From NCBI GenBank assembly GCA_021792555.1, contig JAJYUL010000001.1, positions 1-64,000 of the forward strand: a stretch of DNA of 64,000 bases, written 5' to 3'. Below the pieces are notes generated by a model. It made no database searches, was not told the origin of the DNA, and worked only from the letters and a program-made list of their open reading frames with translations. Positions 53,374 through 61,648 of the stretch are shown here, one piece after another. Each line of letters opens with the position of its first letter. Within the stretch, counting starts at the first letter, position 1. The translations under genes and the position numbers were made by a program. The DNA is from Pseudomonadota bacterium (GTDB taxonomy: Bacteria; Pseudomonadota; Gammaproteobacteria; Steroidobacterales; Steroidobacteraceae).

Positions 53374-54564
53374 TCAGCCGGATCGTTTCAATTGCGCCGC
53401 CACGCGCCGGTAGGCCTCGCGGAACGGGATGCCCTCGCGCACCACCAGGCGATTGGCCTCCTCGGCGGCATGGATGGCCGGATCGAGCCGGATGCGCTCG
53501 GGGCGGAAGCGCACCGCCTCGAGCGCCGCCGGAAGGATGTCGAGCGTCTCTTCGGCTACGTCGATGGCGCGGAACAGCGGAAACTTCAGCAGCTGCAGGT
53601 CGCGCTGGTACCCCGAGGGCAGCTTCGCGCAGATCGAGAGCGCCTCGGTGAGAGAGGCCTGGGCCGTGGCCGAGCGGCCGCGGATCAGCTCGAAGACATC
53701 CGGGTTGCGCTTCTGCGGCATGATGGACGAGCCGGTGGTGAAGGCCTCCGGCAGCTCGATGAAGGCGAACTCCTGCGTATAGAAGAGGAGCACGTCGGCG
53801 GCGAGACGCCCGAGGTCCTGCAGCAGCAGTGATATGTGAAAGAGCAGCTCCGCCTCGGCCTTGCCGCGCGAGAGCTGCACGGCCGTCACCGGCTCGTGCA
53901 CCTGCGCGAAACCGAGCTTGGCGCGCGTCGCCTCCCGGTCGAGCGGCAGCCCGGGCGTGCCGTAGCCGGCCGCCGAGCCGAGCGGGCTCTTGCCCAGGCG
54001 GCGGTGCACGTGACGCAGCGCCTCGGCGTCGTCGCGGATTTCGGTGGCGAAGCCGCCCGCCCACAGCGCGACCGAGCTCGGCATCGCCTGCTGCATGTGC
54101 GTGTAGCCGGGCAGCGCGGTCGAGCGCTCGCGCGCGCCGAGGCGCTCGAGGGATTCGGCGAGCGCCACGGCGCCGGCGCTGAGGCTCTCCACGACATCGC
54201 GCAGATACAGCCGCAGCGCCGTCAATACCTGATCGTTGCGCGAGCGCCCGAGGTGCACGCGCCCGCCGGCCGGACCGATCCGCTCGGTGAGCCGCCGCTC
54301 GAGCGCCGTCTGCCCGTCCTCGTCCGCGAGCTCGATGTGCCACAGCCCGCGGGCGTGCTCCTCGGCGAGCGCGGCGAGCCCCGTGCGGATGGCCTCGAGG
54401 TCGGCGGCCGCCAGCAGCCCCTGCGCGGCGAGCATTTCGGCGTGCGCGATCGATGCGCGCACGTCGTAGGCCACGAGGCGCTCATCGAGCGCGAAGTCCT
54501 CCCCGGCCGTGTAGCGCAGCACGCGCTCATCGAGCGGCGCGCCCTTGTCCCACAGCCGGCTCAC
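53374..54564 (-). CDS. argH: Argininosuccinate lyase (short form)
   Basis: 396 residues, about 60 shorter than most ArgH. Catalytic His is in TALPGYTHMQQ (H156) and catalytic Ser in the signature GSSIMPQKRNPD (278-289); HLGRSRNDQVLTALRLY is intact. It splits argininosuccinate to arginine and fumarate. A GTG start at 54564 lies 2 bases after the argB stop. The C-terminal end lacks part of the usual helical tail, yet active-site loops are complete. Confidence 0.9.
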   Translation of the reverse strand: MSRLWDKGAPLDERVLRYTAGEDFALDERLVAYDVRASIAHAEMLAAQGLLAAADLEAIRTGLAALAEEHARGLWHIELADEDGQTALERRLTERIGPAGGRVHLGRSRNDQVLTALRLYLRDVVESLSAGAVALAESLERLGARERSTALPGYTHMQQAMPSSVALWAGGFATEIRDDAEALRHVHRRLGKSPLGSAAGYGTPGLPLDREATRAKLGFAQVHEPVTAVQLSRGKAEAELLFHISLLLQDLGRLAADVLLFYTQEFAFIELPEAFTTGSSIMPQKRNPDVFELIRGRSATAQASLTEALSICAKLPSGYQRDLQLLKFPLFRAIDVAEETLDILPAALEAVRFRPERIRLDPAIHAAEEANRLVVREGIPFREAYRRVAAQLKRSG

Positions 54565-54566
54565 GC

Positions 54567-55499
54567 TCAGGCCCCGCCGCTTTGCTGCTCGGCCGGCGTC
54601 AGCGCGTCGATGTCCTCGACGATGAGCGTGCCGGTGCCTTCGTTGGTGAACACTTCCCCGAGGATGCCTTCCGGCGCCTGGTACGACACCACGTGCACGC
54701 GCCGCACGCCGCCGCGAATGGCCGACTCGATCGCCCTCGTCTTCGGCAGCATGCCGTCGGCGATCGCACCCTGCTCGCGCAGCCTCGAGAGGCCCTCGAG
54801 GTCGGTGTAAGAGATGAGCGAGCCCGGATCGGCCAGGTCGGCGAGGATGCCGGGCGCGCCGGTGCACAGGATGAGCTTCTCGGCGCCGAGCGCCGCGGCG
54901 ATCGCCGCCGCCACGGTGTCGGCGTTGATGTTGAGCAGCACGCCCTCATCGTCGGCCGACAGCGGGCTCACCACGGGCATCAGGCCGTTGTCGAGCAGCT
55001 TGCACAGCACCGCCGGATCGACCGCGTCGATGTCACCGACGAACCCGTAATCGACCACCTCGCCGCTCGAGGCAAGCGTCACCGGCGGGCGCTTGTGCGC
55101 CTGGATCAGTCCGGCGTCCACGCCGCTGACGCCGACCGCCTCGATGTTCAGCTCGCGGCAGATGGCGAGGATCCCGGTGTTGATGGTGCCGTTCAGCACC
55201 ATCGCGGTCACGTCGATCGCCTCCCGATCGGTCACCCGACGGCCCTCCACCATGCGCGAGCTCACCCCGAGCGCCCGGGCGAGCTCGGTGACCTGCGGCC
55301 CGCCGCCGTGCACGAACACGACGCGCACGCCGAAGTAGTGCAGGATCGCGATCTGCTCGATGAGCACGCGCGTGGAGGCGTCATCGGCGAATACGCCGCC
55401 GCCGGCCTTCACGACGAACGTCTTGCCGCGGTACATGCGGATGTAGGGCGCTGCGCTCTTCAATGCGCGGATGGCCAGTGTCTGGTCGGCGGGTTGCAT
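54567..55499 (-). CDS. argB: N-acylglutamate kinase ArgB
   Basis: About 310 residues of amino-acid kinase fold. Blocks include FVVKAGGGVFADD, VFVHGGGPQVTELARALG, VGVSGVDAGLIQA, NINADTVAAAIAAALGAEKLILCT and the C-terminal GGVRRVHVVSY. No fused acetyltransferase domain is present, so N-acylglutamate synthase must come from elsewhere. ATGs at 55499 and 55505 are both possible. It is downstream of the argF-like gene. Confidence 0.92.
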   Translation of the reverse strand: MQPADQTLAIRALKSAAPYIRMYRGKTFVVKAGGGVFADDASTRVLIEQIAILHYFGVRVVFVHGGGPQVTELARALGVSSRMVEGRRVTDREAIDVTAMVLNGTINTGILAICRELNIEAVGVSGVDAGLIQAHKRPPVTLASSGEVVDYGFVGDIDAVDPAVLCKLLDNGLMPVVSPLSADDEGVLLNINADTVAAAIAAALGAEKLILCTGAPGILADLADPGSLISYTDLEGLSRLREQGAIADGMLPKTRAIESAIRGGVRRVHVVSYQAPEGILGEVFTNEGTGTLIVEDIDALTPAEQQSGGA

Positions 55500-55551
55500 G
55501 ATCATGTCAGTGTTGAGCCCCTGATCTTGAGCGGACGAAAACGCGGCGGGC

Positions 55552-56553
55552 CTACAGCCCCTTCAACAGGCGGTACAACACCGCCATCTGCACCGGCAGG
55601 CGATTGTACGCTTCGTGGCGCACGATGCTGCGCGGACCGTCGAGCACTTCGTCCGCGACGGCGACGTTGCGCCGCACCGGCAGGCAGTGCATCAGGCGGC
55701 ACTCGGGCGCGGCCGGCTCGAACCAGTCATTGCGCACGCACCAGCCGGTCAGCCCGGCGCGCCGGCGCGCCTCCTCGGCGGCATCGCCGTAACAGGCCGT
55801 CGAGCCCCATTCCTTGGCGTAGAGAATATGCGCGCCGGCGAGCGCCTCGCGTCGATCCTCGCTCTCGCGCACCGAGCCGCCGGCGAGCGCCGCGGCGCGG
55901 CGCGCCTTGGCCATGACGGGCTCGGGCAGTGCGAACCCCTCAGGCCTGAGCACCACCACCTCCATGCCGCGCAGCGCCGCCATGTGCAGCACGGCCGCCG
56001 GCACCGCGAGCGGCAACGGGCGCGGATGGTACGCCCACGAAAGCACGAGGCGGCCGCGCTGCGGCACGCCGAAATCATCCATCGTCTTCCAGTCGGCGAG
56101 CGCCTGACAGGGATGGTTGAGCGCCGATTCCAGGTTGATCAGCGGCTTCTCGACGAGCGCCGCGAGCGTGTTGAAGGTCGTCTCGGCCAGATCCGCCGCC
56201 AGATCGCGTCCGTCGGCGAAGGCGCGGATGCCGAGCGCATCGCAGTAGGAGGCCAGCACCGGGATGCCCTCGCGCGCGTGCTCCGCCGCCGCACCGTCCA
56301 TCACAGCGCCGAGCCGCGTCTCGAGCTGCCAGGTTCCCTGGCCGGGGGTGATGACGAACGAGCTGCCGCCGAGCCGCGCCATGCCCGCCTGGAAGGAGGC
56401 CAGCGTGCGCAGCGAGGGGTTCAGGAACAGCAGCCCGAGAATCTTCCCGGCGAGGGCGTGCGGCTCGGGCTGGCGCTGCAGCCGCTCGGCGAGCGCGAGC
56501 AGCGAGAGCACCTCCTCGCGCGTCAGATCGGCCAGGTCGAGGAAGCGCCTCAT
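55552..56553 (-). CDS. N-acylornithine carbamoyltransferase (succinyl/acetyl type)
   Basis: 333 residues of the aspartate/ornithine carbamoyltransferase fold. The carbamoyl-phosphate loop reads NPSLRTLASF (S47-R49-T50), not STRTR; the region TWQLETRLGAVMDG and HCLPVRRN (289-296) mark the N-acetyl/N-succinylornithine class rather than ornithine carbamoyltransferase. The position equal to E92 of Xanthomonas acetylornithine transcarbamylase is A90, and that of carbamylated K302 is A298. Both changes match the succinyl-specific enzymes, so N-succinylornithine is a likely substrate. L51 replaces a usually conserved Arg. It overlaps argD by 4 bases. Confidence 0.88.
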   Translation of the reverse strand: MRRFLDLADLTREEVLSLLALAERLQRQPEPHALAGKILGLLFLNPSLRTLASFQAGMARLGGSSFVITPGQGTWQLETRLGAVMDGAAAEHAREGIPVLASYCDALGIRAFADGRDLAADLAETTFNTLAALVEKPLINLESALNHPCQALADWKTMDDFGVPQRGRLVLSWAYHPRPLPLAVPAAVLHMAALRGMEVVVLRPEGFALPEPVMAKARRAAALAGGSVRESEDRREALAGAHILYAKEWGSTACYGDAAEEARRRAGLTGWCVRNDWFEPAAPECRLMHCLPVRRNVAVADEVLDGPRSIVRHEAYNRLPVQMAVLYRLLKGL

Positions 56554-57725
56554 GCGCCGATGTCCGTGAGCGCCTGGCGCAGCAGATCGACCTGCGCCTC
56601 CTGGAGAATGAACGGCGGCAGCAGCCGCACGACGTCCGGGTCGCTCGCGGTGCCGGCAAGGATGCCGCGACGCAGCAGCTCGGCCTGTACCTGCTTGGCG
56701 GGCCGGCGGGTGCGCAGCCCGAGCAGAAAGCCTTCGCCCTGCATGGCGCTCACCGGCCCGGTGAGGCAGGTGCGCCGGATGTAGGCCGAGACGCGCCGGA
56801 CGTTCTCGAGCAGCCGAGCGGACTCGATCGCCTCGATCGTGGCGAGCAACGCCGCGCACGCCATCGGTCCGCCGCCGTAGGTGGTGCCGAGCAGGCCGAT
56901 CTTCAGCGTGGCGGACACCCGCGCCGAAGTCAGCAGGGCGGCAACCGGAAAGCCGTTGCCGAGCGCCTTGGCGGTGGTGAGCATGTCCGGCATGACGCCG
57001 TAGAGCCCGGCGGCGTAGGGCGCGCCCACCCGGCCGAACCCGCACTGCACCTCGTCGAAGATCAGCTGAGCGCCCACCGCATCGCAGCGCTCGCGCAGCG
57101 CGGCGAGATACGGCGCGCCGAGATCCACCGCCCCGGCCAGCCCCTGCACCGGCTCGACGATGACCGCGGCGGTCCGCTCGGTCACCTGGGCCGCGATGGC
57201 ATCGAGATCTCCGCGCGGCAGGAAGCTCACGTCAAAGGGCGTGCGCGGAAAGCCGTACCAGGACTGCGAGCCCCACGTGACGGCCGATGCCGCGGCGGTA
57301 CGCCCGTGAAATGCCCCCTCGACCGCCGCCACGTGCGGCCGTCCGGTCATGCGCAGCGCGAGCCGCAGGGCGTTCTCGTTGGCTTCCGCGCCGCTGTTGA
57401 CGAGAAACACGCTGGCGAAATCCAGCTGCGAGAAGGCCAGCAGGCGCTGCGCGGCGCGCGTGCGCACGGACATCGGCAGCGCGTTGGTCTGGAATTGACA
57501 GGTGCGCGCCTGCGCGGCGAGCGCTTCGGTCCAACCCGGGTGGCCGTAGCCGAGCGCGGCGACCGCATGGCCACCGTACAGATCGAGCACGCGCTCGCCG
57601 TGCGGCCCGATGAGCCAGACGCCCTCGGCGCGGTCCACCTCGAACGGATACTGGGCGTAGACGGGCGCCAGGGCGTCGCCGTCGGGCGGCGGGGGCGTGG
57701 CGGACACGGGCGGGGATGCGTTCAT
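56550..57725 (-). CDS. argD: Acyl(acetyl/succinyl)ornithine aminotransferase ArgD
   Basis: 391-residue class III PLP aminotransferase. The cofactor lysine is K253 (LTTAKALGNGFP), with D224 in IFDEVQCGFGR and FLVNSGAEANENALRLA. It aminates N-acylglutamate semialdehyde. Members of this class accept acetyl and succinyl substrates. Overlaps the carbamoyltransferase start (ATGA) and follows argC by 11 bases. Confidence 0.93.
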   Translation of the reverse strand: MNASPPVSATPPPPDGDALAPVYAQYPFEVDRAEGVWLIGPHGERVLDLYGGHAVAALGYGHPGWTEALAAQARTCQFQTNALPMSVRTRAAQRLLAFSQLDFASVFLVNSGAEANENALRLALRMTGRPHVAAVEGAFHGRTAAASAVTWGSQSWYGFPRTPFDVSFLPRGDLDAIAAQVTERTAAVIVEPVQGLAGAVDLGAPYLAALRERCDAVGAQLIFDEVQCGFGRVGAPYAAGLYGVMPDMLTTAKALGNGFPVAALLTSARVSATLKIGLLGTTYGGGPMACAALLATIEAIESARLLENVRRVSAYIRRTCLTGPVSAMQGEGFLLGLRTRRPAKQVQAELLRRGILAGTASDPDVVRLLPPFILQEAQVDLLRQALTDIGA

Positions 57726-57736
57726 GAGTTCTCGCT

Positions 57737-58798
57737 TCACGTCCAGCCGGGCGCCGGGGCGGCAAGACCCTCGCTCTCGGGCAGGCCGAACATCCGATTC
57801 ATCCACTGCACGGCGCCGCCGGCGGCACCCTTGGTGAGATTGTCGATGGCGCACATCACCGCGACGGTCCGCCCGTCGCTCACCGCACCGAGGTGCGCAT
57901 AGTTGCTCGCCGTCACGTCCTTGATGCGCGGCGGGCTGTCGAGGACGCGCACGAAACGCGAGCCGGCATAGGACTCGCGCAGCACGCCGAGCAGCTCGGC
58001 CGTCTCGAGCGGGCGGCGCAGCCGCGCCTGCACCGTGACGTGAATGCCGCGGGCGAACGGCCCGGAGTGCGGCACGAAGGCGAACTCGGCGGCCACGCCG
58101 CTCGCGGCGCGGGCGCAGGCGGCGATCTCGGGGGCGTGCCGGTGCGCGAGCGCGCTGTAGGCGTACAGATCGCTGTGCCGCAGCGGGTGGTGCGTGCCGG
58201 AGGTCGGCTTGCGGCCCGAGCCGGTGCTGCCGGTCACGCCCGCGACGAACAGCTGCGGCTCGAGGAGGCCGCGGCCGAGCAGCGGCACGCTCGCCAGCAG
58301 CACCGCGGTGGCGAAGCAGCCCGGATGCGCCACGTGCGCGGTGGTGAGATCGGTCAGATGCTCCGGCACCGCGCAGGTGAACTCCGCCAGACGCCCGGGG
58401 GCGCCGTGCGGATGCCGGTAGACCCGCTCGTAGTCCTCTGCCGAGCGGAAGCGGAAATCCGCGGAGATATCGACCACCCGCGGCGCGGTGCCCGCCTGGG
58501 CCGCAGCGCCGAGCAGCGTGTCGATCAGCTGCGCGGACACCCCGTGCGGGGCGGCCGAAAACACCGCGCAGCGCGGCTCGCGCGTGAGCAGTGCGCGCAC
58601 CGCCTCCTGCGACTGGAAGCACGCATCTCCGTAAACGGACGCGAGGTGCGGGAACGCCCCGGCGAGTGCCTCACCGGGCTGGCTGTCCGACATCACCGCG
58701 CGCACCTGCAGGCGCGGATGACCCGCCAGTAGGCGCAGCAGTTCGCCGGCCACGTAGCCGGTGCCGCCGAGCACGACCGCCGGGATGGGCTCGCTCAT
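57737..58798 (-). CDS. argC: N-acetyl-gamma-glutamyl-phosphate reductase
   Basis: 353 residues. NADPH motif GGTGYVAGEL (11-20) and catalytic C161 in HVAHPGCFATA. It reduces N-acylglutamyl phosphate. It overlaps the upstream P-loop protein gene by 4 bases (ATGA), so they are translated together. Confidence 0.94.
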   Translation of the reverse strand: MSEPIPAVVLGGTGYVAGELLRLLAGHPRLQVRAVMSDSQPGEALAGAFPHLASVYGDACFQSQEAVRALLTREPRCAVFSAAPHGVSAQLIDTLLGAAAQAGTAPRVVDISADFRFRSAEDYERVYRHPHGAPGRLAEFTCAVPEHLTDLTTAHVAHPGCFATAVLLASVPLLGRGLLEPQLFVAGVTGSTGSGRKPTSGTHHPLRHSDLYAYSALAHRHAPEIAACARAASGVAAEFAFVPHSGPFARGIHVTVQARLRRPLETAELLGVLRESYAGSRFVRVLDSPPRIKDVTASNYAHLGAVSDGRTVAVMCAIDNLTKGAAGGAVQWMNRMFGLPESEGLAAPAPGWT

Positions 58799-59871
58799 GC
58801 GCGCGGTCCGGTCAGCAGTCCGACGGCCCGCATGACGTGATCGCCGAGGGACGCACCGTCACTGATGGCGTTGAACGCCGGGACCTTGAGCTGTTCGGTG
58901 ATCAGGTCGATGCCCACCTGGTTGTCGGTGGCCGGCCCCGTGACCACGCACGGCTCGATGCCGAAGCGCTCGCGCAGCAGCTTCACGCCGCCCCAGGCGG
59001 CGACCGGATCGTTGGCCGAGAGCGCCACTGCGGTCAGCGCGGCGCGGATATCGGGGCACTCCAGGATGGCATCCACGCCGTAGGTGCCGAGGATGCCGTC
59101 GCCGAGCTCGAACACGATGACGTCGGGCTTGCCCGCGGACAACTCGGTGAGCATGGTGCGCGTCAGGGCCGGTCCGTTGTGCCGCGTGGTCGTCACCACG
59201 CCGAAATCGGTGAAGATCGCCGAGCGGCGCGCGCCGGCATCCTCCATCGCCATGATGTCGCGGCGCAGCGAGACGCCGGTCGCCTTGAACGCATCGACCG
59301 CGAGGCCGCGGTGGCGCATGCGGCTGATCATGGCGCACGCGGCGGCCGTCTTGCCGGCCTCCATGCACGTGCCGGCGAGGGCCACCACCGGAACCTGGCG
59401 GGTCTCGAGCCGGGCGGCCTGATCGAGCGCCCGCAGGCCGACCCGGGCCGGCACGCCGATGCGCTCGCCGAGATAGGGAAAGCGCAGCACCACGCCGAGC
59501 ACGCGGCAGTCGAAGGGCTGGCCCTTGTCGGGATTGATCGAGTCGCACGCCCCGAGCACCCCGCCGATGTTGAGCATCTGGATGGTGTCGCCCGGCTTGA
59601 CCGACTCCGGGATGTGCCCGGAGTAGCCGAACAGCGCCTTGCGGTGGCCGAGCGCCCCGACCACGATGTCGCCCTTGCGCACCTTGGCCATGCGCCCGCT
59701 GGTGAGCTCGAGCGTGTTGTAGGTCGACTTGTTGGTCAGCACCTCCACGACGATCACCACGCCCTCCTCGGCGGGGATGTCCGCGGCGATGCGCACCTCG
59801 TGCGACAGGCCGCAGGCCTGCGCCACCGAGGCGATCTTGTCCACCACGACGCTGCGCATCCCGTTGCTCAT
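58795..59871 (-). CDS. P-loop protein of unknown function inside the arginine operon
   Basis: 358 residues. The N-terminal ~150 residues (rich in beta-type stretches: KVRKGDIVVGALGHRKALFG) match no fold I know. The C-terminal domain has a Walker A GTCMEAGKT (167-175), then KATGVSLRRD, FTDFGVV (220-226) and FELGDGILGTYGVD (254-267). The pattern distantly recalls DUF1611/DgcN and the dethiobiotin synthetase group of P-loop enzymes. DgcN has been described as an N-acetyltransferase of D-glutamate. It sits between argG (1-base gap) and argC (4-base overlap), where Bacteroidetes-type arg operons carry the N-acyltransferase. GGGGAG precedes the ATG. A role in making N-acylglutamate is inference. 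Confidence 0.7.
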   Translation of the reverse strand: MSNGMRSVVVDKIASVAQACGLSHEVRIAADIPAEEGVVIVVEVLTNKSTYNTLELTSGRMAKVRKGDIVVGALGHRKALFGYSGHIPESVKPGDTIQMLNIGGVLGACDSINPDKGQPFDCRVLGVVLRFPYLGERIGVPARVGLRALDQAARLETRQVPVVALAGTCMEAGKTAAACAMISRMRHRGLAVDAFKATGVSLRRDIMAMEDAGARRSAIFTDFGVVTTTRHNGPALTRTMLTELSAGKPDVIVFELGDGILGTYGVDAILECPDIRAALTAVALSANDPVAAWGGVKLLRERFGIEPCVVTGPATDNQVGIDLITEQLKVPAFNAISDGASLGDHVMRAVGLLTGPRA

Positions 59872-59872
59872 G

Positions 59873-61123
59873 TCACTTGCTCCCCGGCGCCGCGGCGCCG
59901 CCGGCGTGCTCCCCGGCACGGCGGTGGAATGCCCCGGTGAGGGCGACGATCTTGGAAAACCCGAGCGCGTCCTGCGCCGACCACTCGCCGGCCGCCTCGC
60001 CGTACACGCCCTTCGAGACGCTCATCAGCGAGTAGGGGGACTCGAGGCCCTCGATGAACAGATTGCCGGGGCGCAGCGCGAAGCGCACCGTGCCCGTGAC
60101 GCGCGCCTGCGAGGACTCGAGCAGCGCCTCGATGTCCCGGCAGACCGGATCAAGCAGCTGCCCCTCGTGCACCAGGTCGCCGTACGGCTGCGCGACCAGT
60201 TCCTTGATGCGCTGCTGGCGGCCGGTGAGCACGAGCTTCTCGAGCTCGCGATGGGCCGTGAGCAGCACCTCGGCGGCGGGCGCCTCGAAGGCGACGCGGC
60301 CCTTGGTACCGATGATGGTGTCGCCGAGATGGATGCCGCGCCCGATGCCGAACGGGGCGGCGAGCGACTCCAGCGCCTCGATCAGCGCCACCGGCGAGAG
60401 CGCGCGGCCGTCCAGACCCGCCGGCCGACCGCGCTCGAACGCGAGCACGTGGGTTTCCGGCGCGCGTGGACGCGTGAATGCCTCGCGCGTGAGCACCCAG
60501 GCCTCCTCGGGAATGCTGCCGGAGGAGCTGAGCGTCTCCTTGCCGCCGATGGTCACGCCCCACAGCCCGCGGTTGACCGAGTAGGCCGCGCCGAAGGGCG
60601 GCACGGGCAGGCCGCGCTCCTCGAGGAACGCGAGCTCCTCCGGGCGCTTGAACGCCTTGTCGCGCACGGGGGCGAGGACCTCGAGATCCGGCGCGAGCGT
60701 GCGCATGGCGACCTCGAAGCGTACCTGGTCGTTGCCCGCTGCCGTGCAGCCGTGGGCGATCATGTTGGTTCCGAGCTTGCGCGCCATGTGCGCGATGGTC
60801 TGCGCCTGCATGACCCGCTCGGCGCCTACGCACAGCGGATAGAGCTGGCCGCGCTTGACGTTGCCCATGATCAGAAAGCGCAGCACCTGCTCGAAATAAT
60901 CCGCGCGCGCATCGATCTGGTGATGCGCCACGGCGCCGAGCGCGTGTGCGCGCTCAGCGAGCGTGCGCGCCGCCTCGGCGTCGATGCCGCCGGTGTCAAC
61001 GGTGACGGTGATCACCGGCCGGCGGTAGGTCTCCTTCAGCCACGGCACCAGAAAGGAGGTGTCGAGGCCGCCGGAATAGGCAAGAACGATGGGCTCCTCG
61101 CCCGCAGTGGAGGCTGTGGTCAT
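59873..61123 (-). CDS. argG: Argininosuccinate synthase
   Basis: 416 residues. ATP-pyrophosphatase loop AYSGGLDTS (15-23); HGCTAAGNDQVRFEV and YSVNRGLWGVTIGGKETL are intact. Sequence style (TVTVDTGGIDAEAARTLAERAHALGA; KGVYGE end) resembles Bacteroidetes-type ArgG more than E. coli ArgG. It condenses citrulline and aspartate. It is the first biosynthetic gene after argR. Confidence 0.92.
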   Translation of the reverse strand: MTTASTAGEEPIVLAYSGGLDTSFLVPWLKETYRRPVITVTVDTGGIDAEAARTLAERAHALGAVAHHQIDARADYFEQVLRFLIMGNVKRGQLYPLCVGAERVMQAQTIAHMARKLGTNMIAHGCTAAGNDQVRFEVAMRTLAPDLEVLAPVRDKAFKRPEELAFLEERGLPVPPFGAAYSVNRGLWGVTIGGKETLSSSGSIPEEAWVLTREAFTRPRAPETHVLAFERGRPAGLDGRALSPVALIEALESLAAPFGIGRGIHLGDTIIGTKGRVAFEAPAAEVLLTAHRELEKLVLTGRQQRIKELVAQPYGDLVHEGQLLDPVCRDIEALLESSQARVTGTVRFALRPGNLFIEGLESPYSLMSVSKGVYGEAAGEWSAQDALGFSKIVALTGAFHRRAGEHAGGAAAPGSK

Positions 61124-61126
61124 GGC

Positions 61127-61573
61127 TCAGATCCGAAAAAGCGCCTGCAGCCGCCCGATCAGCTGATCCTGGGCGCGCTCCGAGGCAGTGGCAATGAAGA
61201 TGGTGTCGTCGCCGGAGAGGGTGCCGGCCACCTCGGGCCATTCGGCCCGATCGATCGCGACCGCGACGCTCTGGGCCGCCCCGATGGTGGTCCTGAGCAC
61301 CGTGAGCGAGGGCCCGGCGCGCTTCAGCCCCCGCACGAACTGCGCCAGCATGGCGAAATCACCGTGCGTGCGCGAGACCTCGTCCGGCGGCAGGACGTAG
61401 CGGCCGCTCGCCTTGAGCACGCCCAGGTCGCGCAGGTCGCGGCTGATCGAAGACTGCGTGACTTCATAGCCTTCCTCGCGCAGCAGCCGCACCAGGTCCT
61501 CCTGGCGGTGCACCACGCCGCTGCGCAGGATGCGCACGACGGCCTGACGGCGTTCGAGTTGCTGAGCGTCCAC
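61127..61573 (-). CDS. argR: Arginine repressor
   Basis: About 148 residues: a winged helix N-terminal domain (RQEDLVRLLREEGYEVTQSSISRDLRDLGVLKA) and the C-terminal hexamerisation/arginine domain with AAQSVAVAIDRAEWPEVAGTLSGDDTIFIA. GTG at 61573 starts the family-like VDAQQLERRQAVV; an upstream in-frame TTG (61639) would place coding sequence across the operator boxes. It heads the arg operon and probably represses itself and the cluster. Confidence 0.92.
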   Translation of the reverse strand: MDAQQLERRQAVVRILRSGVVHRQEDLVRLLREEGYEVTQSSISRDLRDLGVLKASGRYVLPPDEVSRTHGDFAMLAQFVRGLKRAGPSLTVLRTTIGAAQSVAVAIDRAEWPEVAGTLSGDDTIFIATASERAQDQLIGRLQALFRI

Positions 61574-61597
61574 GGCGAGGTCAGGTGCGAAGGGAGG

Positions 61598-61636
61598 TGT
61601 GCATAAACTTGCGCGTATTGTGCATATTAATTCGCG
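61598..61636. promoter_or_regulatory. Paired ARG-box-like operator upstream of argR
   Basis: Two similar 18-bp elements, TGTGCATAAACTTGCGCG (61598-61615) and TGTGCATATTAATTCGCG (61619-61636), are offset by 21 bp, the centre-to-centre spacing of paired ArgR boxes (18 bp + 3 bp). The site is an AT-rich island in a 70% GC setting, 25-63 bases upstream of the argR start. Confidence 0.65.
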
Positions 61637-61648
61637 CAAGTCAATGGG

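Follow-up and report, generated by a model that had tools for sequence, protein, structure and literature searches.

A P-loop protein encoded between argG and argC is a candidate N-succinyl-L-glutamate-forming enzyme of arginine biosynthesis in Steroidobacterales

Results

The first 64,000 nucleotides of contig JAJYUL010000001.1 (assembly GCA_021792555.1, a gammaproteobacterium of the family Steroidobacteraceae, order Steroidobacterales; hereafter the window) carry an arginine operon with the minus-strand gene order argR-argG-X-argC-argD-argF'-argB-argH, in which the gene here termed X (58795–59871, minus strand) encodes a 358-residue P-loop protein that is a candidate N-succinyl-L-glutamate-forming enzyme. 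The open reading frame runs for 358 codons from an ATG at 59871 to a TGA at 58795–58797; its ATG lies one base past the TGA of the upstream argG, its stop codon overlaps the start of argC (ATG at 58798) in an ATGA at 58795–58798, and translational coupling of X to both neighbours is plausible. Because a stop codon immediately precedes the methionine aligned with M5 in three homologues (L085, L089 and L095; L, G and C numbers are our handles for loci, genomes and contigs), the native start may instead be M5. The first of these, L085, belongs to a metagenome-assembled genome labelled Klebsiella pneumoniae (CAMCBU010000002.1) that contains a Steroidobacteraceae-type operon, and the label is probably wrong. 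That X is a real gene rather than a chance reading frame is confirmed by comparison, since orthologues 59–97% identical fill the same slot in 47 of 60 relatives.

The neighbouring genes, all on the minus strand, were assigned by hidden Markov models (HMMs). The products of argG (argininosuccinate synthase, 59873–61123; TIGR00032 290.6 bits, cut-off 268), argC (N-acyl-gamma-glutamyl-phosphate reductase, 57737–58798; TIGR01850 288 bits, cut-off 234), argF' (N-acylornithine carbamoyltransferase, 55552–56556; NF003384 340 bits, cut-off 288), argB (N-acylglutamate kinase, 54567–55505; TIGR00761 215 bits, cut-off 151) and argH (argininosuccinate lyase, 53374–54570; TIGR00838 312 bits, cut-off 279.5) exceed the cut-offs of the models named. 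For argR (arginine repressor, 61127–61639) both Pfam domains are above cut-off and TIGR01529, at 111 bits, is below its cut-off of 130; for argD (acylornithine transaminase, 56550–57722) PF00202 scores 276 bits (cut-off 30.5) and TIGR00707 307, below its cut-off of 410. X passes no Pfam or NCBIfam model at cut-off. An earlier reading of the window, made from its DNA without database searches (the sequence-only reading), had placed a gene with the Walker A motif GTCMEAGKT between argG and argC, in a cluster without ArgA, ArgJ, a GNAT protein or an ArgB fusion. These points are borne out: the motif spans residues 167–175 (59347–59373, minus strand), the HMM assignments of the neighbours reveal no such enzyme, and the 312-residue ArgB has no acetyltransferase (GNAT) domain.

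Taking a best E below 1e-40 to define orthologues among the 60 relatives, two genomes beyond the 47 have only a ~30%-identical paralogue. Across the order (247 genomes, each at least 90% complete) 227 genomes gave a match, comprising 222 with orthologues and five with only paralogues or short pieces. Matches were far sparser in a class-wide sample (16 of 232 genomes, six with an orthologue, of which three, G095, G160 and G265, lie outside the order), and a phylum-wide sample (397 genomes, E 1e-30) added a single orthologue, 72% identical, in G703, a member of a different class that probably acquired it by horizontal transfer. Among the best 80 of 442 confirmed stretches, ten are labelled Steroidobacteraceae and nearly all others just Gammaproteobacteria or Proteobacteria.

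The position of X is strongly conserved. Of 95 loci, 91 have argG and argC as the arg genes nearest to X, the exceptions being three contig ends and one reduced operon (L102), and the spacing between X and argC is below 200 bases in all 92 loci in which argG, X and argC were matched, at a laxer E-value than that used for the 95. The slot is kept even in rearranged operons (L161, L163) where X is 43–46% identical. In L102 (7460–11129) the order is argR-X-argC-argB, with a 48-residue argF' remnant between argC and argB, no match to argG or argD, and a contig end inside argB; a reduced cluster of the same composition, argR-X-argC-argB, occurs in G703 (L262, 6083–9739), with no match to argD, argF', argG or argH within 18 kb around it. 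In both reduced clusters, then, X remains beside the genes for steps 2 and 3, which is the best positional argument for its catalysing step 1. In four X-type operons (L087, L094, L109, L127) argF' stands directly 3' of argC with no argD match, and the transaminase may come from elsewhere.

Known first-step enzymes were sought in the same genomes, and neither argJ nor an argA above cut-off, which by the sequence-only reading would have counted against X, was detected. ArgJ was detected in none of the 60 relatives, as against 10 of 14 known genomes used as a positive control; the ArgA model was likewise above cut-off in none of the 60, a model that exceeded its cut-off in just one of the 14 controls. 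Sub-threshold ArgA-model matches in the relatives are argB or weak GNAT pieces, and argB is the sole match to the ArgA profile at E 1e-3 in 19 of the 47 X-bearing relatives. In the genome of the window the NAT fusion (PF04768) was not found, and of its 13 GNATs (PF00583) two pass an NCBIfam cut-off, as RimI and ArsN2; none of the 13 passes the N-acetylglutamate-synthase NCBIfam model, other GNAT families not having been searched genome-wide. The ArsN2 protein (L153, 1405–1851, on G000:C70; 151 bits, cut-off 125) is also the weak ArgA-profile match of this genome. Within X itself, searches of Pfam and NCBIfam at E up to 1 returned no GNAT, ArgJ or PF04768 domain.

A first-step enzyme of a different kind, the Xanthomonas-type ArgB-NAT fusion, does occur in the order, and never together with X. 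Of the 247 genomes, 222 have X only, 13 the fusion only, none both and 12 neither (Fisher p 3.5e-15, a value that ignores relatedness); the corresponding counts in the 60 relatives are 47, 9, 0 and 4. Nine of the 12 genomes with neither have no argB above cut-off, and in the remaining three (G324, G476, G484) the X-type arg contig is cut off within argC or at its edge, just before the place expected for X, with no X elsewhere in the assembly, which we read as assembly gaps. G415 has X and no NAT fusion. The fusion genomes inspected have the operon argF'-argG-argE-argB/NAT-argC-argH (L173, L174 and L176–L179; L175 is similar). One family (f7) carries the fusion in two genera (G450, G456) whereas most of the family carries X, and therefore some switches occurred inside a single family.

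The acyl group was approached through the carbamoyltransferase of the operon. Passages of a review from the group that solved the structures (PMC4581275) mark the acetyl-type enzyme by Glu92, Asn185 and Lys302 and the succinyl type by A/S/P/V/Q, P and V/I/E at these positions, and in the relevant section of PMC7311316 the GapMind authors apply the first position likewise to Bacteroidetes. At the places of Xanthomonas Glu92, Asn185 and Lys302, the ArgF' of the window has Ala91, Pro182 and Ala299. Of 97 stretches surveyed in genomes with X (two of them, L162 and L217, in a single genome), 80 have an argF' match and 78 are readable at the first two positions; all 78 have succinyl-type residues there, the triplets being A/P/A (64), A/P/V (10), V/P/E (2), P/P/E (1) and A/P with the third position unread (1). 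The fusion loci are acetyl-type in seven of seven cases (six E/N/K, one E/N/Q). Because the ArgF' of the operon carries succinyl-type residues, the product of the first step is probably N-succinylglutamate and the intermediates succinylated, whilst N-acetylglutamate is made unlikely.

A succinylated pathway requires a deacylase, and argE is absent from the X operon. An ArgE model (cut-off 297.7 bits), run against 20 genomes (15 with X, 5 with the fusion), gave no match above 120 bits in 13 of the 15 X genomes, as compared with 162–180 bits for the operon ArgE of the five fusion genomes, itself below cut-off. The best matches in the three X genomes in which they were scanned (that of the window, G050 and G095) are DapE above its own cut-off. 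Full-length ArgE genes above cut-off lie in G037 (C92:37193–38308) and G046 (C23:283190–284290), on contigs other than that of the arg operon. According to the part of PMC7311316 that treats Bacteroides, the N-succinylcitrulline desuccinylase candidate there is a distant DapE relative; a DapE that does both jobs is a reasonable guess for the deacylase in the X genomes.

AlphaFold2 gave a good P-loop domain for residues ~150–350 of X, in which ten-residue blocks mostly have a predicted local distance difference test (pLDDT) score of 77–96, with dips to 67 and 52; the N-terminal part was modelled poorly and, when predicted alone, reached a pLDDT of 64.5 in the best model and 32–36 in the other four. 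This part (~150 residues) drew no fold assignment from Foldseek (best E 0.86), VIA (best Z 4.6) or Pfam (EF-G_D2, E 0.047); its profile retrieved one designed repeat protein from the solved structures (E 0.029), with no domain passing, and a Foldseek match to the arginine enzyme AgrE (E 1.5) was discarded as not significant. Sequence searches of solved structures with X, its profile and a profile of its paralogues returned nothing below E 0.05. The closest structural matches of the P-loop domain are CTP synthase (Z 16.9), the DUF1611 structures 2g0t (16.5, over 178 residues) and 2obn (16.1, over 185 residues), and dethiobiotin synthetase (16.1). On these scores the modelled domain appears about equally close to all three, a tie in which the match is not specific to DUF1611.

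The Walker A residues G167, M170, G173, K174 and T175 occur in every one of 15 X proteins and in at least 90% of 17 paralogues, as do Lys196, Thr198, Gly199, Asp205, Asp222, Thr228 and Glu255. The Lys196 codon (59284–59286, minus strand, within FKATG) aligns with the lysine of the dethiobiotin synthetase motif YKPVASG in a weak HMMER alignment (E ~1), and Glu255 (59107–59109, minus strand, within VFELGDG) is by its conservation a candidate for the Mg-binding glutamate. The Walker A Lys-Thr, a later lysine and an acidic candidate for the Mg ligand are therefore all present and conserved, their possible equivalence to the residues of ligases resting on a weak alignment and motif reading. A further set of residues, invariant in X and present in fewer than 30% of the paralogues, includes Lys48, Tyr51, Asn52, Asn101, Cys109, Arg137, Arg204, Tyr264, Asp316 and Asn317, which are candidate substrate-binding residues.

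The sequence-only reading had likened X to DUF1611/DgcN and pointed to profile comparison with that family and with dethiobiotin synthetase. The likeness holds at the level of the P-loop fold (Z 16.1–16.5 for the two families), but by sequence X alone matches neither significantly. Its best Pfam match is indeed DUF1611 (PF07755), which scores 17.5 bits (cut-off 25) over residues 157–199 only; hhalign of X alone with DUF1611 gave a probability of 4% (E 0.011, not significant), and of X together with its paralogues 69% (E 4e-5). The best E for dethiobiotin synthetase is 0.97. In all 12 DUF1611 proteins fetched, the P-loop GTDxxxGK continues with Met, Lys or Arg, and no lysine stands at the place of Lys196, a criterion that is our own reading of these sampled proteins rather than a published definition, whereas the ten X proteins compared with them all have GKT and Lys196. 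On the sub-cut-off profile match, the insignificant alignment of X alone and the differing P-loop and Lys196, membership of DUF1611/DgcN was rejected. DUF1611 proper is present as a separate gene in the X genomes G074 and G042.

X and its paralogues are homologous over nearly their full length (hhalign probability 99.95%, E 1e-37). The paralogues occur in two recurrent settings. One is the position behind a flavin-reductase-like and an M20 peptidase gene (L042–L045, L048), neighbours that were family-scanned in L043 and, for the M20 peptidase only, in L044. The other is directly before a gene resembling an ATP-binding cassette (ABC) exporter, both in Gammaproteobacteria (L047, L164–L168, L171, L172) and on Rhodobacterales plasmids (L268–L270), the exporter having been scanned in L047 and L165, taken from annotation on the plasmids and otherwise judged by length and sequence start. 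The X-like genes of the three plasmids are annotated as DUF1611 (two) and dethiobiotin synthase (one). A 27%-identical relative lies on the Priestia megaterium plasmid NZ_CP085446.1 (L267, 2730–11418), in a phosphonate-peptide-like cluster with two ATP-grasp genes, a split thiamine pyrophosphate (TPP) enzyme, an M20 peptidase, a luciferase-like monooxygenase (LLM) flavin oxidoreductase, an ornithine carbamoyltransferase and a phosphoenolpyruvate (PEP) mutase-like protein. The last contains EDKVFPKLN, in agreement with the PEP mutase signature EDKxxxxxN. This setting suggests amide-bond chemistry for the X family. The ornithine carbamoyltransferase encoded in this cluster may serve in self-resistance.

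Discussion

Because X and the fusion synthase are mutually exclusive, because neither ArgJ nor ArgA was found above cut-off in the 60 relatives, and because X occupies a fixed slot, we consider it likely that X catalyses the first step of arginine synthesis. The proposal of a new N-acylglutamate synthase made in the sequence-only reading is thereby supported as to the role, by comparative genomics, with the acyl group changed to probably succinyl; given the first-step role, a succinyl group is slightly more probable than the role itself. Our confidence in the role extends over both chemistries discussed below, transfer from acyl-coenzyme A (acyl-CoA) included.

Several observations weigh against this assignment. 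In the fusion genomes inspected the operon is another one, of Xanthomonas type and including an argE, such that the exclusion is between operons and is not a one-gene swap; since whole operons alternate, there were fewer independent events than the genome count suggests. Eleven of the 13 PF00583 GNATs in the genome of the window pass no NCBIfam cut-off and other GNAT families went unsearched, which leaves room for an unlinked acyltransferase. The third ArgF' position is Ala in 64 of 78 loci, outside the published V/I/E (10 others have Val and 3 Glu, none has Lys, and 1 is unread), and two of the 15 X genomes, G037 and G046, have ArgE above cut-off. The P-loop fold of X recurs in DUF1611, a family with a reported N-acetyltransferase (DgcN), and in GTPases, among them FtsY, which ranks high in Foldseek. 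Finally, the case for X is a comparative-genomic one.

The mechanism that we favour is that of a succinate-glutamate ligase using ATP. X would form N-succinyl-L-glutamate as the first committed intermediate in a succinylated route to arginine; ArgB, ArgC, ArgD and the SOTCase-like ArgF' would carry this on to N-succinylcitrulline, whereupon a deacylase encoded outside the operon, for which DapE is the obvious candidate, would remove the succinyl group. The P-loop site of X, of the type seen in BioD and CTP synthase, would bind MgATP through Lys174, Thr175 and Glu255; succinate would be activated as an acyl phosphate, with Lys196, Asp205 and Arg204 as candidate residues; and the amine of glutamate would attack this acyl phosphate, with release of ADP and phosphate. 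Membership of the operon, the failure to find known first-step enzymes, the succinyl-type ArgF' and the P-loop fold on which this scheme builds are supported by the data; from them we infer the reaction itself, the use of ATP rather than succinyl-CoA, and DapE as the deacylase. Given the first-step role, ATP-dependent chemistry has in our estimate an even chance.

A close rival, although taken singly somewhat unlikely, assigns X the same role with other chemistry, namely that of a DgcN-like, acyl-CoA-dependent glutamate N-acyltransferase using succinyl-CoA or acetyl-CoA. In its favour are the reliance of the known N-acylglutamate synthases on acyl-CoA or an acyl donor, a P-loop domain that superposes as well on 2g0t and 2obn as on ATP enzymes, the weak Pfam match to DUF1611 and the hhalign result for X with its paralogues. 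For X alone, however, the hhalign match is not significant, and the 12 DUF1611 proteins lack the GKT and Lys196 that X keeps, as ATP ligases do. It is because X keeps both that we favour the ATP ligase: the pattern would fit chemical use of ATP better than mere binding of the nucleotide portion of CoA. With the folds tied, the option of an ATP-dependent N-acyl ligase raised in the sequence-only reading is left at least as good as that of a transferase.

Other explanations deny X the first step or change its substrates. We consider it unlikely that N-acylglutamate comes from an unlinked GNAT, with X serving the operon as an accessory protein (regulator, chaperone or ATPase): the 11 GNATs without an NCBIfam assignment leave candidates, and the Foldseek matches include non-ligase GTPases and ATPases (FtsY, Ffh, HypB, MeaB), but 19 of the 47 X-bearing relatives have no GNAT matching the ArgA profile at E 1e-3, X never accompanies the fusion synthase in 247 genomes, and it remains with argB and argC in reduced operons. 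An ArgJ-like transacylase, moving the acyl group from N-acylcitrulline to glutamate, would fill the ArgA and ArgE gaps together, and could account for an X operon without argE, for the weak ArgE-model matches of 13 of 15 X genomes beside those of the fusion genomes, and for best matches that proved to be DapE in all three genomes scanned. We nevertheless regard it as very unlikely; X has no ArgJ domain, transacylation needs no conserved nucleotide-type P-loop, G037 and G046 hold X as well as ArgE, and a desuccinylase, DapE, is available, the Bacteroides candidate described in the consulted portion of PMC7311316 being a DapE relative. Least probable of all is that X is the N-acylcitrulline deacylase, replacing ArgE rather than acting first: most X genomes examined lack an identified enzyme for the ArgE step no less than for the ArgA step, but X has an NTP-binding P-loop fold with no match to a hydrolase family, and it stays with argB and argC where argF' has gone from the cluster (L102, L262).

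X can be compared with several known systems. DgcN, of the DUF1611 family, is reportedly a D-glutamate N-acetyltransferase, and amino-acid N-acylation by it would be analogous to the role of X; DUF1611 and X have in common the P-loop domain fold and an extended G-x5-GK loop, and differ in GK[MKR] as opposed to GKT, in Lys196 and in operon. The portion of PMC12363236 concerned describes dgcN simply as a key gene in D-Glu racemization. The fold of X is likewise that of BioD and of the amidoligase domain in CTP synthase, and BioD additionally has an extended Walker A that ends with GKT and a lysine at the same place, but there is no significant sequence match, and X has an additional N-terminal part of ~150 residues and lies in an arginine operon. 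The Bacteroidetes N-succinylglutamate synthase candidate BT3761 belongs to a succinylated pathway with the same predicted product and a SOTCase-type ArgF'; it is presumably of GNAT type, a fold unrelated to the P-loop of X, and the X operon differs in having argR and no argE. The passages of PMC7311316 on this locus call BT3760 argininosuccinate synthase, to which BT3761 is adjacent by locus tag. The Xanthomonas-type ArgB-NAGS fusion (PF04768) occupies the first step in sister lineages within the order, and differs from the X system in its acetyl-type ArgF' and in a gene order that includes argE.

In the open-access literature we found no description of the X protein or of a succinylated arginine pathway in this group, nor, there and in the sections consulted of PMC5554518, any statement on the growth of Steroidobacter denitrificans without arginine. 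What would be new is an unrelated protein for the first step together with a succinylated arginine pathway outside Bacteroidetes; genome comparison lends good support to the role of X. We tentatively put forward, as a possible wider reading, that X founds a family of ATP-dependent amino-acid N-acyl ligases, that arginine synthesis in the order begins with the ligation of succinate to glutamate, and that the paralogues linked to M20 peptidases, ABC exporters and phosphonate genes make other acyl-amino-acid or peptide bonds. If the assignment of X is correct, most of a gammaproteobacterial order (222 of 247 genomes sampled) would gain an enzyme for the opening step of arginine biosynthesis, which annotation tools are otherwise inclined to report as missing or as an auxotrophy, and a P-loop family without a Pfam or NCBIfam match at cut-off would receive its first function. 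The pathway with succinylated intermediates that has been described in Bacteroidetes would then extend to Pseudomonadota, and, if the reaction is driven by ATP, it would represent a new way of making an N-acyl amino acid in primary metabolism.

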